A model generated the notes under the pieces. That model was not told the DNA's origin, made no database searches, and saw only the letters and a program-made list of their open reading frames with translations. From Streptomyces sp. DvalAA-14 (lineage in GTDB: Bacteria; Actinomycetota; Actinomycetes; Streptomycetales; Streptomycetaceae): DNA of 33,579 bases. The stretch covers positions 1-33,579 of the forward strand of contig NZ_FMCH01000180.1 in the NCBI RefSeq assembly GCF_900091855.1, in the 5' to 3' direction. How positions within the stretch are numbered: the stretch's first letter is position 1; the number at the start of each line of letters is the position of its first letter. Of the stretch, positions 12,291-30,118 are shown in pieces. The position numbers and the translations under genes are program-made.

Positions 12291-14132
12291 ATGACTGCAC
12301 GTGCACGTGTCCGCGCCCCCGAGCTGATCGGGAAGGGCGGCTGGCTGAACACCGGCGGGAAGCAGCACACCCTGGCCGACCTGCGCGGATCCATTGTGAT
12401 CCTCGACTTCTGGACCTTCTGCTGTGTGAACTGCCTGCATGTCCTGGACGAGCTGCGGGAGCTGGAGGAGCGCCACCGCGACACCGTGGTGATCGTCGGG
12501 GTGCACTCGCCGAAGTTCGTGCACGAGGCCGAGCACCGGGCCGTGGTGGACGCGGTGGAGCGCTACGCGGTGCACCACCCGGTGCTGGACGACCCGGAGC
12601 TGGCCACCTGGAAGCAGTACGCGGTCCGGGCCTGGCCCACGCTGGTCGTCATCGACCCCGAGGGATACGTGGTCGCGCAGCACGCCGGCGAGGGCCACGC
12701 GCACGCGCTGGACAAGCTCGTCACCCGGCTGGAACAGGAGCACACCGCCAAGGGCACCCTGCGGCGCGGCGACGGCCCCTACGTGCCGCCGGAGCCCGTC
12801 GCCACCGATCTGCGGTTCCCCGGCAAGGTGCTGCTGCTGCCCGCTTCCGGGCACTACCTGGTCGCCGACTCCAGCCGGCACGCCCTGGTCGAACTGGCCG
12901 CCGACGGCGAGAGCGTGGTCCGGCGGATCGGTACCGGTGAGCGCGGCCTGGTCGACGGCGACGCGGCCACCGCCCGTTTCAGCGAACCCCAGGGCTTGGC
13001 CCTGCTGCCCGACGGGTCCGTCGTGGTGGCCGACACCGTCAACCACGTGCTGCGCCGGCTGGATCCGCAGACCGGCCGGGTCACCACCGTGGCCGGCACC
13101 GGCACGCAGTGGTGGCAGGGCTCGCCCACCTCGGGACCGGCCCGCGAGGTGGCGCTGTCCTCACCGTGGGACGTGGCCTGGTTCGAGGACCGGGTGTGGA
13201 TCGCGATGGCCGGCGTCCACCAGCTGTGGACCTACGACCCGGCCACCGACCGGGTGGAGGTCGCGGCCGGCACCACCAACGAGGGCCTGGTGGACGGGCC
13301 CGCCGACGAGGCGTGGTTCGCCCAGCCCTCGGGACTGTCGGCCGCCGGGGGTCGGCTGTGGATCGCCGACGCCGAGACCTCGGCGCTGCGCTGGGCCGAG
13401 CGGGCCCAGGACGGGGCCGGACATCTGATCCGGACCGCTGTCGGCACCGGCCTGTTCGACTTCGGCCACCGCGACGGGCCGGCCGGACAGGCGCTCCTGC
13501 AGCACCCGTTGGGCGTCACCGCGCTTCCGGACGGCTCGGTCGCGGTCAGCGACACCTACAACAACGCGCTGCGCCGCTACGACCCGGTGACGGGGGAGGT
13601 GTCCACGCTGGCCACCGATCTGCGCGAGCCGTCGGACGCGGCCGTGGTGGACGGCGACATCGTGGTGGTGGAGTCGGCGCGGCACCGGCTGACCCGGCTG
13701 CGGCTGCCGGAGGAGGCGGTCCGCGTGGAGGCGGTCGCGCACCGCACCCGGCGGGCCGCGACCGATGTCGGCGCCGGACCGTTCCGGCTGGACGTGGTCT
13801 TCTCCGCGCCCCCCGGCCAGAAGCTGGACGACCGCTACGGCCCCTCCACCCGGCTGCTGGTGAGCGCCACTCCGCCCGAACTCCTGCTGGAGGGCGGCGG
13901 CAAGGGCAGCGACCTGTTCCGCGAGCTGGTGCTGGACCCGGCGGTGCCCGAAGGGGTGCTGCACGTGTCGGCGATGGCGGCGTCCTGCGACGTGGACGAC
14001 TCCGACAACCCCAACCCGTATCCGGCCTGCCATGTGCACCAGCAGGACTGGGGAGTCCCCGTCCGGATCACCCCGGACGGGGACTCGCGGCTCGCTCTGG
14101 TCCTGGCGGGCATGGACGGGGCGGCCGGGTGA
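12291..14132 (+). CDS. NHL-repeat/thioredoxin-like protein, NHLRC2 type
   Basis: This is a 613-residue two-part protein. The N-terminal thioredoxin-like domain (about 10-150) carries the redox motif FWTFCCVNCLHVLDEL with a CVNC pair, then WPTLVVIDPEG. A six-bladed NHL beta-propeller (about 165-500) shows blade motifs such as GLALLPDGSVVVADTVNHVL and GVTALPDGSVAVSDTYNNAL. A C-terminal beta-sandwich follows, as in human NHLRC2. It has no signal peptide and is predicted cytoplasmic. The role is unknown; disulfide exchange is likely from the CxxC motif. ATG 12291 is chosen for the close GGATGGGG; ATG 12273, six codons upstream, is an alternative leaderless start. Codons 2-5 contain the palindrome TGCACGTGCA. 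Confidence 0.88.
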   Translation: MTARARVRAPELIGKGGWLNTGGKQHTLADLRGSIVILDFWTFCCVNCLHVLDELRELEERHRDTVVIVGVHSPKFVHEAEHRAVVDAVERYAVHHPVLDDPELATWKQYAVRAWPTLVVIDPEGYVVAQHAGEGHAHALDKLVTRLEQEHTAKGTLRRGDGPYVPPEPVATDLRFPGKVLLLPASGHYLVADSSRHALVELAADGESVVRRIGTGERGLVDGDAATARFSEPQGLALLPDGSVVVADTVNHVLRRLDPQTGRVTTVAGTGTQWWQGSPTSGPAREVALSSPWDVAWFEDRVWIAMAGVHQLWTYDPATDRVEVAAGTTNEGLVDGPADEAWFAQPSGLSAAGGRLWIADAETSALRWAERAQDGAGHLIRTAVGTGLFDFGHRDGPAGQALLQHPLGVTALPDGSVAVSDTYNNALRRYDPVTGEVSTLATDLREPSDAAVVDGDIVVVESARHRLTRLRLPEEAVRVEAVAHRTRRAATDVGAGPFRLDVVFSAPPGQKLDDRYGPSTRLLVSATPPELLLEGGGKGSDLFRELVLDPAVPEGVLHVSAMAASCDVDDSDNPNPYPACHVHQQDWGVPVRITPDGDSRLALVLAGMDGAAG

Positions 14133-26238: not shown

Positions 26239-27981
26239 CTACGCGGCGGCCGCGTCCGGGTCGCCGCCGAAGCGCGCCACGTAGGACGCCAGGTCGTCCT
26301 CGGTGATCTTCGCGAAGAGCACCGGGGGGACGGTGAACGGCGTGCCCGCGGGGAGCGCGGACAGGTTGCGGGCCTCGTCCGGGGTGACCCAGGCGGCGTC
26401 GTCACCGGGCAGGTCGAAGGCGGCGCGCATGGCGGCGGCGGAGGCCGGGATGAAGGGCCCGGAGATGATCGCGTAGAGGTGGATGAGGTTCATCGCCGTG
26501 CGCAGGGTGAGCGCGGCGCCCTCCGGGTCGGTCTTGATCTCCAGCCAGGGCGCCTTCTCCTCCAGGTAGGAGTTGCCCGCGCTCCACAGCGCCCGCAGGG
26601 CCTGCGCGGCCTTGCGGAACTGCAGCGTCTCCAGGTGACCCTCGTACTCGGCGAGCAGCCCGGCGACCTGCTCGCCGAGCTTGACCTCGACCGCGCCCTG
26701 GGCGGCGCCCGCGGGCACCTCGTCGCCGAACCGCTTGCGGGAGAAGGACAGCACCCGGTTGACGAAGTTGCCCAGGGTGTCGGCGAGGTCCTTGTTCACC
26801 GAGGACGCGAACAGCTCCCAGGTGAAGGACGTGTCGTCGGACTCGGGCGCGTTGGCGATCAGGAAGTAGCGCCAGTAGTCGGCCGGCAGCAGGTCCAGCG
26901 CCGCGTCGGTGAAGATGCCGCGCCGCTGCGAGGTGGAGAACTTGCCGCCGTAGTAGTTCAGCCAGTTGAAGGCCTTGACGTAGTCGACCTTCTTCCACGG
27001 GTCCCGGGTGCCGAGCTGCGTCGCCGGGAACATCACCGTGTGGAAGGGGACGTTGTCCTTCGCCATGAACTCCGTGTAGCGGACCGGGTCGGCGCCGCCG
27101 TCCGCGTCGTACCACCAGGACCGCCAGTCCCGCGTCTCGCCCTGCGGCGCGGCATCCGACCACTCCTTGGTGGAACCGATGTACTCGATCGGTGCGTCGA
27201 ACCAGACGTAGAAGACCTTGCCCTCGGCGGCCAACTCGGGCCAGGTGTCGGCGGGGACGGGGACTCCCCATTCGAGGTCGCGGGTGATCGCCCGGTCCTG
27301 AAGGCCCTCGGTGAGCCACTTGCGTGCGATCGAGGACGCCAGGTTCGGCCAGTCCGCGCTGCTGGCGTCGATCCACGCCTCGACCTCGCCGGCCAGCTTC
27401 GACTGCAGGAGGAAGAGGTGCTTGGTCTCGCGGACCTCCAGGGCGCTGCTGCCGCTGATCGCGGAGCGCGCGTCGATGAGGTCGGTGGGGTCCAGCACCC
27501 GGGTGCAGTTCTCGCACTGGTCGCCGCGCGCCTTGTCGTATCCGCAGTGCGGGCAGGTGCCGACGATGTACCGGTCGGGCAGGAAGCGCTCGTCGGTCAG
27601 CGAGTAGACCTGGCGGACGGCCCGCTCCTCGATGAACCCGTTCTCGTGCAGCCGGCGGGCGAACTGCTGGGTGATCTCCCGGTTCTGCGGCGAGGAGCTG
27701 CGGCCGAAGTAGTCGAAGGACAGCGCGAATCCGTCGTAGATGGCGCGCTGGGCCTCATGGGCCTGGGCGCAGAACACGTCCACCGGCAGCCCGGCCTCCT
27801 TGGCGGCCAGCTCCGCGGGGGTGCCGTGCTCGTCGGTGGCACAGATGTAGAGCACTTCGTGGCCGCGCCCGCGCAGATACCGGGCGTAGACATCCGCCGG
27901 GAGCATGGACCCCACCATGTTGCCCAGGTGCTTGATCCCGTTGATATAGGGCAGGGCGGAGGTGATGAGGTGACGAGCCAT
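26239..27981 (-). CDS. metG: methionine--tRNA ligase
   Basis: Cytosolic class I synthetase, 580 residues, charging initiator and elongator tRNA(Met). The HIGH-type motif is HLGN (H18-N21) in [15 protein letters not shown] zinc-binding knuckle has C-P-H-C and C-E-N-C pairs (about 142-158). The KMSKS loop reads KFSTS (347-351) followed by QRRG, a variant seen in this MetRS lineage. The anticodon-binding helical domain is at about 400-540. There is no C-terminal EMAP-like domain, so the enzyme is the short form. ATG 27981 has GGGAGC 9 nt upstream. It is convergent with the transpeptidase and divergent from the DUF397 gene. Confidence 0.97.
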
Positions 27982-28182
27982 TGCAGGCTGCTCCCAATTC
28001 GTTGCGTGGAGTGAGTAATTCCTCTACGGATCGTCAATATCGTATCGGACCGTACGGGTGTATACGCCGCCCCTTTTCGACCTGCGGTTACACCGCGACT
28101 ACACGCTGACCATGCGGTGACCGTGTGCTGACCGCGGCCCGATGCGGCCCGCAGGTCAACCCCGAAGCTCACCGGCTGTAAC

Positions 28183-28215
28183 TGCACATGCGCATGCACG
28201 TGCACATGCACGTGC
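28183..28215. promoter_or_regulatory. 33-bp alternating pyrimidine-purine tract (Z-DNA-prone), candidate operator
   Basis: Every base from 28183 to 28215 alternates pyrimidine and purine. The tract contains the 11-bp direct repeat CATGCACGTGC at 28193-28203 and 28205-28215 (12-bp period) and the perfect palindromes CATGCGCATG (28187-28196) and TGCACGTGCA (28195-28204). It lies 55 nt upstream of the DUF397 start, between metG and DUF397. A further inverted repeat GATAA-ggag-TTATC (28219-28232) follows. Confidence 0.6.
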
Positions 28216-28270
28216 TGCGATAAGGAGTTATCATCTCCGGTACCAGACAAGGCACTTATGGGAGTGGCTG

Positions 28271-28507
28271 ATGCGCCGGACGCACAATGGAATGGCCGCA
28301 GAAGACCTTACGGGAGTCGTCTGGCAGAAGAGCCGTCACAGCAATGCCAATGGCACGTGCATGGAGTTCGCGGCGCTGCCGGACGGTGACGTCGCCGTGC
28401 GCAATTCTCGCTTTCCGGACGGTCCGGCGCTCATATATACGCGGGCGGAGATCGAATCGATGATCATCGGCGTCAAGGCCGGTGAATTCGACTATCTCGT
28501 GACGTAA
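28271..28507 (+). CDS. DUF397 small regulatory protein
   Basis: This 78-residue protein has the DUF397 signature: GVVWQKSRHSNANGTCMEFA (15-34), then LPDGDVAVRNSRFPDGPALI and a final KAGEFD. In streptomycetes such proteins (BldB relatives among them) act beside an XRE/DUF5753 regulator and an RsbW-like ATPase, as in the whiJ and abaA clusters that affect development and antibiotic production. Some are viewed as antitoxin-like partners. The matching regulators lie 0.1-1.8 kb downstream. ATG 28271 has GGGAGTGG just upstream; the longer open frame upstream runs through the repeat tract and is not coding. Confidence 0.9.
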   Translation: MRRTHNGMAAEDLTGVVWQKSRHSNANGTCMEFAALPDGDVAVRNSRFPDGPALIYTRAEIESMIIGVKAGEFDYLVT

Positions 28508-28594
28508 ACGGCTTTGTCGGACACGATGGCGCGCCGGCGATTTCGCCCGACGCGCCATCCAACGTCCTGCTCGATCTGCCCGCGGGCAGCGGGG

Positions 28595-29071
28595 CTAGCG
28601 GGGACCGCCCGGGGCCAGGAAAAGCGCCCAGACGACTTTCCCGGCGCCGCTCAGCGGGTGCCAGCCCCAGTTCTCGCTGAACGAGTCCACCAGGTGCAGC
28701 CCGCGGCCGGTCTCGGCGACGAAATCCGGCTCTTTCGCGATCGGGGCCACCATGCTGGGGTCGCGCACCGCGCACACCACCCGGGAGGTCCAGCGGACCA
28801 GAGTCAGCCGAACCGGCGCTCCGGTGGCGCCCACCGGCACCGCGTAGCGCAGCGCGTTGGTCACCAGCTCGGAGGCGACGAGTTCCATGGAGTCCCGCAG
28901 CCCGGTCAGATCCCAGCGCTGCAGCGTGAGGCGGGTGAACCGGCGCGCCTCGCGCACCGATTCGAGGTGGGCCCGCAGCTCGCAGGTGGCCCCGTTGGCG
29001 GCGGCGAGTCGCTCGGGTGCGAGCACGCCCTGCCATAACGGCTCCAGCACGGCTGCGGCCTCTGTCCTCAT
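28595..29071 (-). CDS. RsbW-like ATP-binding protein (HATPase_c, anti-sigma regulatory type)
   Basis: This 158-residue GHKL ATPase domain protein resembles SpoIIAB/RsbW serine kinases that bind sigma factors or STAS antagonists. The N-box is SELVTNALRYA (67-77, Asn72), with D104 in VRDPS and the glycine-rich lid ETGRGLHLVDSFSENWGW (120-137). ATG 29071 is preferred: upstream codons in frame run through the TGCACGTGCA repeat region and are out of family. It stands opposite the XRE gene at 29252, sharing the intergenic control region. Together with DUF397 it forms a WhiJ/AbaA-type trio. Confidence 0.88.
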   Translation of the reverse strand: MRTEAAAVLEPLWQGVLAPERLAAANGATCELRAHLESVREARRFTRLTLQRWDLTGLRDSMELVASELVTNALRYAVPVGATGAPVRLTLVRWTSRVVCAVRDPSMVAPIAKEPDFVAETGRGLHLVDSFSENWGWHPLSGAGKVVWALFLAPGGPR

Positions 29072-29138
29072 GCGTGCCCCCGAGGTATCTCCACGTCGTC
29101 CATGCTCATGGATCAGTACCCGAGGATGCAAGAGCGTC

Positions 29139-29170
29139 TGCACGTGCATCTGCAAGGAATGATGCACGTG
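29139..29170. promoter_or_regulatory. paired TGCACGTG sites between ATPase and XRE genes
   Basis: The palindrome TGCACGTGCA (29139-29148) and a second TGCACGTG (29163-29170) are 24 bp apart, on one DNA face. The same core occurs upstream of DUF397 (28195-28204). Confidence 0.5.
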
Positions 29171-29194
29171 ACGATGGAGAGTGACTGAATGGGT

Positions 29195-29206
29195 ACTGCG
29201 CGCAGT
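29195..29206. promoter_or_regulatory. 12-bp perfect palindrome upstream of XRE gene
   Basis: ACTGCGCGCAGT is perfectly self-complementary and lies 46 nt before ATG 29252, immediately before an AT-rich stretch (CATTAGT) that may be the -10. Confidence 0.45.
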
Positions 29207-29251
29207 GCATTAGTGGCAGACTGCTGATGAACCAAGGGCGGAGCGTGACCT

Positions 29252-30118
29252 ATGAGCGCAGGGCAGCCGGGAGGCGGGTCCATCGTGCGACGAATGCTGC
29301 TCGGGGCGCAGTTGAGGCGGCTGCGTGAGTCCCGTGGCATCACCCGGGAGGACGCGGGCTACTCGATCCGCGCCTCCGAGTCGAAGATCAGCCGCATGGA
29401 GCTGGGCAGGGTCAGCTTCAAGGAGCGTGACGTCGCCGACCTGTTGACGCTGTACGGCGTCACGGAGGGCGGCGAGCGCCTCGCCATGCTCGGACTGGTC
29501 CGGGAGGCCAACGCGGCCGGCTGGTGGCACGGATACGGCGAGGTGATGCCCACCTGGTTCCAGACATACGTGGGCCTGGAGGAGTCGGCGGCACTCATCC
29601 GCACCTTCGAAGTCCAGTTCGTGCACGGCTTGTTGCAGACCGAGGACTACATAAGGTCGGTGATCGAACTCGGTCACCCCGAAGCAGCCGGACCCTGGGT
29701 GGAAAGACGAGTCGGTCTACGCCTGGAGCGGCAGAAGCTCCTCGTATCGGAGCGGGCGCCCCACTTCGTCGCGGTGATGGACGAGGGCGCGCTGCGCCGT
29801 CCGTTCGGCGGCCGTCAGGTGATGCGCGGCCAGATCCGCCACCTGCTGGAGGCGGCCGAGGCGCCCAACGTCGATGTCCGGATCCTGCCCTTCGCCACCG
29901 GCGGGCACGCGGCCGGCGGCGGCGCCTTCACGCTGCTCAGCTTCCCCGAGTCGGACCTGCCGGACCTGGTCTATCTGGAGCAGCTCACCGGGGCGCTGTA
30001 CATCGACAAGCACGACGAGGTGGTGGAGTACACCAAGGCGATGAACGCGCTGGACAAGGTGGCGCTGCCGCCCGCCCAGTCCTTGGACTGGCTGATCGCC
30101 TGCCGCGACGAGCTCTGA
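29252..30118 (+). CDS. XRE-family helix-turn-helix regulator with DUF5753 (WhiJ-like)
   Basis: This 288-residue DNA-binding protein has an N-terminal XRE helix-turn-helix (about 14-70; LGAQLRRLRESRGITREDAG, SKISRMELGR). A DUF5753 effector domain follows (about 95-280; GWWHGYGEVMPTWFQTYVGL, VQFVHGLLQTEDYIR, VMDEGALRRPFGG, AFTLLSFPE, LTGALYIDK). This is the standard partner of DUF397 proteins; S. coelicolor WhiJ is the model. It probably binds sites in the intergenic regions of this cluster, with TGCACGTGCA as candidate. ATG 29252 has GGAG about 10 nt upstream. Confidence 0.92.
   Translation: MSAGQPGGGSIVRRMLLGAQLRRLRESRGITREDAGYSIRASESKISRMELGRVSFKERDVADLLTLYGVTEGGERLAMLGLVREANAAGWWHGYGEVMPTWFQTYVGLEESAALIRTFEVQFVHGLLQTEDYIRSVIELGHPEAAGPWVERRVGLRLERQKLLVSERAPHFVAVMDEGALRRPFGGRQVMRGQIRHLLEAAEAPNVDVRILPFATGGHAAGGGAFTLLSFPESDLPDLVYLEQLTGALYIDKHDEVVEYTKAMNALDKVALPPAQSLDWLIACRDEL

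Follow-up and report, generated by a model that had tools for sequence, protein, structure and literature searches.

What does an unbroken alternation of pyrimidines and purines (Y-R) stand for when it lies just upstream of a small DUF397 gene? The tract in question, TGCACATGCGCATGCACGTGCACATGCACGTGC at 28183–28215, belongs to a 33,579-bp stretch of DNA from Streptomyces sp. DvalAA-14 (contig NZ_FMCH01000180.1), the whole of which we analysed and refer to as the window. An earlier note on this DNA described the alternation over 33 bases, which is indeed there, and proposed either a supercoiling-sensitive switch capable of adopting Z-DNA or a multi-site operator. The comparative evidence favors the multi-site operator and speaks against the switch. 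Overall, we consider it highly probable that the tract serves the DUF397 promoter as its operator and consists of three back-to-back sites of the cluster's XRE-DUF5753 regulator, with a second array at the HATPase and XRE genes.

The tract and its units

The next-longest Y-R run in the window spans 15 bases, and the longest run in simulated windows reaches 19 bases with a second-order Markov model (n = 100) and 21 bases with a third-order model (a second set, n = 100). The 33-bp tract is real and lies far above chance expectation within the window. The details reported by the earlier note also hold: the tract contains the overlapping palindromes CATGCGCATG (28187–28196) and TGCACGTGCA (28195–28204), carries an 11-bp direct repeat with a 12-bp period (CATGCACGTGC at 28193–28203 and again at 28205–28215), and ends 55 nt before the DUF397 start codon (28271). 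Beyond these features, we find a 6/12-bp phase, a −10-like element at 28229–28234, and an array beside the XRE gene at 29126–29173.

Structural analysis of the tract draws on 40 close promoters, namely that of the window and those of loci in which DUF397 reaches at least 75% identity (taken from 44 loci), all anchored on the −10-like element. These reduce to 23 unique sequences that can be aligned without gaps, and the number of units is fixed. The tract resolves into three contiguous 12-bp units based on TGCACGTGCA, namely CTGCACATGCGC / ATGCACGTGCAC / ATGCACGTGCTG, at 28182–28217. Predicted operator unit 1 (CTGCACATGCGC, 28182–28193), placed by unit phase and by the alignment of the 23 unique promoters, is degenerate here and reads CTGCACGTGCAC in most close relatives. 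Predicted unit 2 (ATGCACGTGCAC, 28194–28205) contains the exact palindrome TGCACGTGCA, with TGCACGTGC invariant in 23/23 unique promoters, and predicted unit 3 (ATGCACGTGCTG, 28206–28217) is again placed by unit phase and promoter alignment. In 16 hand-chosen representative loci, 129 of 199 TGCA pairs at distances of 7–48 bp have a spacing divisible by 6, against about 1/6 expected by chance, the pairs not being independent of one another.

A TATCAT on the forward strand (28229–28234) lies 11 bp past unit 3 in 23/23 unique close promoters, and TATSAT is found in most distant loci too. As judged from sequence, this element may act as the −10 of the DUF397 promoter, and unit 3 would occupy the place expected of the −35 hexamer. 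A consensus promoter scan returned no match to a sigma-70 −35/−10 pair.

We note a few further observations on the tract and its surroundings. The sequence GTGAC adjoins the array (28167–28181 region) in 21/23 unique close promoters and reads GTAAC in the window; by eye, it often forms the right arm of a TCAC-N5-GTGA inverted repeat, possibly an additional binding site or a part of the operator. The second-longest Y-R run of the window (12296–12310) is a solitary TGCACGTGCACGTGT with no array, beginning 2 bases past the ATG that opens the reading frame ATGACTGCACGTGCACGTG... Within the DUF397 gene, GGCACGTGCATG (28352–28363) encodes part of an NGTCMEF stretch; it is probably a codon coincidence and could be a candidate intragenic site.

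Conservation of the palindrome and of the alternation

Eighty loci were gathered by similarity of the XRE protein and not by motif (the best 80 of 105 relatives). The closest are mostly from Actinacidiphila and related Streptomyces, with XRE proteins 90–93% identical, which would place the window in this genus as well. The palindrome TGCACGTGCA lies no more than 420 bp upstream of XRE in 80/80 loci and, among the 78 loci having a DUF397 match, no more than 300 bp upstream of DUF397 in 76; after collapsing XRE at 80% identity, the corresponding counts are 12/12 and 10/12. In the remainder of these loci, 12 TGCACGTGCA sites are spread over 702,557 bp. The metG gene on the other side of the tract (26239–27981, reverse strand) was not found in the fetched stretch in 61/78 loci, of which 59 keep the motif upstream of DUF397, and the motif is thus not part of metG.

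Searches by pattern extend the comparison to whole genomes. The five-hexamer array pattern has a single occurrence per genome in 30/35 genomes of the genus (backward control, 0/35), and the five genomes lacking it have an XRE match of 70–93% identity and a degenerate array. The four-hexamer TGCA pattern is found in 29/111 family genomes, its backward control in 10/111, and one locus was fetched per matching genome (29). All 16 fetched loci with TGCACGTGCA in the array lie at an XRE-DUF397 pair, including those of a second XRE subfamily of 58–60% identity (L171, L179, L186); none of the 13 loci without TGCACGTGCA does, and 12 of these are plain hexanucleotide repeats. Several genomes have a second four-hexamer place, most such places being five-hexamer sites.

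The alternation behaves differently, and it is here that the Z-DNA proposal, in which the alternation itself would be selected as a supercoiling-sensitive switch, has to be weighed. In its favor stand the 33-bp unbroken run, far beyond chance in the window, and the Y-R runs of 11–37 bp in 17 metG-linked loci, 7 of which reach 32–37 bp. Perfect alternation over 33 bp is, however, kept in only 8/23 unique close promoters and broken in 15/23. The columns at the unit boundaries vary in ways that break it (column 13, A in 14 and T in 9; column 24, C in 13, G in 9 and T in 1), and a tally of differences from the alternating consensus over the 33 columns gives 27 that break the alternation against 15 that preserve it. 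In the 61 loci without metG linkage the runs shorten to 7–19 bp while the palindrome is kept, and neither the array of the nearest paralogue nor the second array of this cluster alternates.

Alternation conserved independently of the binding motif, as a Z-DNA element would require, was not found among these promoters and loci. The outcome that the earlier note had named as telling against its proposal, orthologues that keep the regulator and lose the tract, applies to the alternation and not to the motif. Since the motif is kept while the alternation varies, the latter is incidental, a by-product of a tandem TGCACR hexamer that alternates by construction. We consequently regard a Z-DNA switch as very improbable, and we reject Z-DNA as the conserved feature on the broken alternation in close promoters and distant loci alike. 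A more general caution follows, in that purine-pyrimidine alternation can arise as a by-product of tandem palindromic operators.

The second array, the cluster and its paralogues

The second array lies in the intergenic region between the divergent HATPase and XRE genes and comprises four 12-bp-phased units, ATGCAAGAGCGT / CTGCACGTGCAT / CTGCAAGGAATG / ATGCACGTGACG (29126–29173). It is not Y-R alternating. Unit CTGCACGTGCAT holds an exact TGCACGTGCA at 29139–29148, 944 bp from the exact site of the first array. Further toward XRE, TGGCAGACTG (29214–29223, forward strand) is a conserved stretch and a candidate for the −10 region of XRE; it was identified by eye in orthologue sequences and, among the sequences listed, is retained ahead of XRE in most clades. 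Paralogues carry an GGCAGGCTG or GGCACACTG version upstream. A promoter role for TGGCAGACTG is what we infer from this, and together with its variants it is likely to be a promoter element common to the regulator family.

The cluster that holds both arrays consists of three genes. The DUF397 gene (28271–28507, forward strand; 78 amino acids; PF04149, E 8.7e-17) encodes a BldB/Scr2-type partner protein, the HATPase_c_2 gene (28595–29071, reverse strand; PF13581, E 2.3e-12) an AbaA/anti-sigma-like protein, and the XRE gene (29252–30118, forward strand) a WhiJ-type regulator with HTH_31 (PF13560, E 5.9e-15) and DUF5753 (PF19054, E 3e-59) domains. DUF397 matches are found in 78/80 loci (none in L021 and L062), as are HATPase orthologues by tblastn (none in L073 and L080), most of which align from residue 1. 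The XRE orthologue alignment contains a near-invariant segment, SESKISRMELGRVSFK. An XRE-DUF5753 gene with adjacent DUF397 and HATPase_c genes is the set found in the whiJ/bldB-paralogue/abaA clusters of streptomycetes (PMC10294661), and all three are present here. The structure model of XRE contributes little: its mean predicted local distance difference test score (pLDDT) is 70, and its top Foldseek matches are helix-turn-helix (HTH) domains (ClgR, C.BclI; best E 0.015). In sequence searches of the PDB, the best match of XRE is ClgR at E 0.16, and DUF397 has no match.

Within its own genome (7.94 Mb), exact TGCACGTGCA occurs at 10 sites against 13 for the backward control. Near DUF397 and XRE genes, it is found in this cluster only (14 DUF397 and 13 XRE genes, a 490-bp stretch each, with two additional partial DUF397 matches left out of the survey). 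The seven sites outside the window, each read over about 90 bases, resemble coding sequence to the eye. A genome-wide regulon drawn from exact TGCACGTGCA was rejected on the 10 sites against 13 in the control, and we claim no distant targets.

The nearest paralogue of the regulator (47% identity; G000 contig C394, L099/L108), present in 25/35 genomes of the genus at the cut-off applied, has an array of its own upstream of its DUF397 in 25/25 loci. This array reads TGCAATTGCA and holds a third TGCA, within AATTGCA, 18 bp past the TGCAATTGCA start; in all 25 loci it keeps the same 6-bp phase, has AT and not CG at the centre, and has lost the alternation. The altered array suggests a testable basis of insulation between pairs. 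By eye, the paralogue group L110/L109, with an RRMEKAE helix, has no TGCA array upstream of XRE, and part of this group carries a CTGTAAWTTACAG-like palindrome there instead. Palindromes of this type, among them variants such as CTGTAATTTGCAG, were noted by eye upstream of RRMEKAE-helix XRE paralogues at L240–L255; they make a candidate operator that differs in sequence and is not arranged as an array.

We tentatively suggest that a WhiJ-type subfamily might read a lattice of TGCA half-sites every 6 bp, in which abutting 12-bp palindromes would seat side-by-side dimers and the centre bases (CG in this cluster and AT in its nearest paralogue) would insulate paralogous clusters, an idea that we consider less likely than not. 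If true, such a lattice would amount to an operator code and would go some way towards explaining why a dozen or more XRE-DUF397 pairs can coexist per genome without crosstalk.

Mechanism, alternatives and known systems

That the tract is the operator of its cognate XRE is the prediction in which we place the most confidence, slightly above that for the arrangement as a whole. The XRE protein would bind TGCACGTGCA as dimers, a 12-bp palindrome being a fit for a dimer of a lambda/434-type HTH protein, and neighboring dimers may cooperate. Bound across the −35 region, XRE would mainly repress DUF397, HATPase and, by autorepression, its own gene. DUF397 might in turn counteract XRE, as proposed for SCO4542 and WhiJ, which would create a double-negative loop, and the array would probably set the amount of this small partner that is made. 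Binding of both arrays by XRE and the sign of control are inferred; given a cognate-XRE operator, net repression of the DUF397 promoter is the somewhat more probable outcome. In the distant loci L073 and L080 the site comes after the −10-like element, a location that suits repression. In most other loci it lies upstream of or across the −35 region and decides nothing on the sign of control.

The opposite sign has arguments of its own. XRE at units 2 and 3 could replace the missing −35 and turn DUF397 on, a reading that we consider unlikely but worth serious attention. It is consistent with the lack of a consensus −35/−10 pair and with the position of unit 2, whose centre is estimated to lie near −41.5 if the start site is assumed 7 nt past the −10. 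A position near −41.5 is the classical one of a class II activator. Against it speak the sites of L073 and L080 and the clade-dependent distance between the palindrome start and the −10-like element (17, 40, 46/34, 34, 23, 16, 52, −33 and −37 bp over 75 loci).

This same variability of distance also leaves room for activation, and it is one of several points that weigh against the operator and repression reading set out above. By analogy with WhiJ9, which is needed for activation of iosA (PMC10294661), the XRE of this cluster may activate, and the second array lies about 45–90 bp upstream of the candidate XRE −10, a position that could suit activation. In the distant loci L071 and L078, no site lies upstream of DUF397, which there follows XRE. 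A further four-hexamer match with TGCACGTGCA, in genome G026, shares its contig with the array already known there and is additional to the one locus fetched from each genome. Lastly, the paralogue L111 (40% identity) has a similar SKISR helix without a conserved TGCA array: visual inspection of the 140 bp preceding XRE showed none across the 30 loci of its group. In 2 of 16 listed loci of this group (L111 and L208; group n = 30), TGCAATTGCG lies downstream of XRE in differing surroundings, and the site is thus not conserved. A rule by which the SKISR helix means a TGCA array is ruled out by this group.

Two further explanations do without the cognate regulator. A plain symmetrical palindrome is usable by many regulators, and the site could belong to a different, global regulator that controls such clusters. 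This is improbable: exact sites in the own genome do not exceed the backward control, its other DUF397 clusters lack the exact site, the array pattern is single-copy in 30/35 genomes of the genus, and the array of the nearest paralogue matches this one in an altered form. Repeated hexamers with overlapping palindromes would also suit a simple-sequence repeat or an RNA element (hairpin, leader or riboswitch) that binds no protein. The unit count, however, is constant in the 23 gap-free promoters, the tract, being upstream of the −10-like element, falls outside the predicted transcript, and the 27800–29300 region has no Rfam match at the gathering threshold. On the last two results we reject an RNA element, and the explanation as a whole is scarcely credible.

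How does the predicted cognate-XRE operator compare with what is known? XRE-DUF397 pairs are described in excerpts of PMC8269248 and PMC6262351 as very numerous in streptomycetes and as influencing development and antibiotic production, and an XRE antitoxin with a DUF397 toxin has been proposed in the literature as a type II toxin-antitoxin system. The whiJ/SCO4542/SCO4544 locus of S. coelicolor has the same three gene kinds (XRE, DUF397, anti-sigma-like) as the cluster here, and SCO4542 has been proposed to relieve WhiJ repression (excerpts of PMC4255298 and PMC6262351); the word "operator" is absent from the main text of the locus paper. The same XRE and DUF397 partnership recurs in Scr1/Scr2 and in fourteen S. 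coelicolor pairs (PMC6262351, PMC10364602). The main texts of these two papers contain neither "palindrom" nor "motif", and that of PMC6262351 neither "footprint" nor "EMSA".

In the open-licence PMC literature, we found no report of TGCACGTGCA as an operator of an XRE-DUF397 pair. Judged by title and abstract start, none of the papers there that contain TGCACGTGCA deals with an actinobacterial regulator; judged by title, none reports such an operator for GCACGTGC with Streptomyces; and DUF5753 is absent from among the matches listed. The conserved, genome-rare and pair-specific motif makes the target of the regulator directly testable. Also to be compared is the nearest-paralogue array, which likewise places hexamer-phased TGCA half-sites upstream of DUF397 beside a WhiJ-type XRE, but differs in the AT centre of TGCAATTGCA and in lacking Y-R alternation.

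In the open-licence literature covered, WhiJ9 is the one WhiJ-family regulator with a characterised operator: it binds repeats beside its own gene, and whiJ9 transcripts rise 2-fold on its loss (PMC10294661). Its direct repeats, CGNNCTCAAC, are absent from the tract and from the second array, both of which are built of TGCAC-type units. The two-repeat WhiJ9 pattern was counted in 86/394 family genomes and its backward control in 32, so that many of the matches are chance. In four regions picked for a 10-bp period (L194–L197), triple repeats GTTGAGNNCG lie beside XRE reading frames and match the published WhiJ9 repeat consensus, which suggests a 10-bp period for the WhiJ9 repeats; by their sequence, these arrays would be WhiJ9-type operators.

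The likeness to the array described here is one of arrangement. As in WhiJ9, a short array of tandem repeats adjoins a WhiJ-type XRE gene within a whiJ/bldB-kind cluster, close to the regulator's own promoter, and just as several WhiJ9 repeats are bound together, the array here has multiple units that are predicted to be bound. The differences lie in the unit and its reader: direct repeats in WhiJ9 versus a 12-bp palindrome with a 6-bp sub-phase here, and GAAISAxE (in the three sequences listed) versus SESKISRxE in the region of the recognition helix. In sum, sequence comparison gives good support to the array as the predicted operator of a regulator whose kind is known, although its geometry differs from that of WhiJ9.
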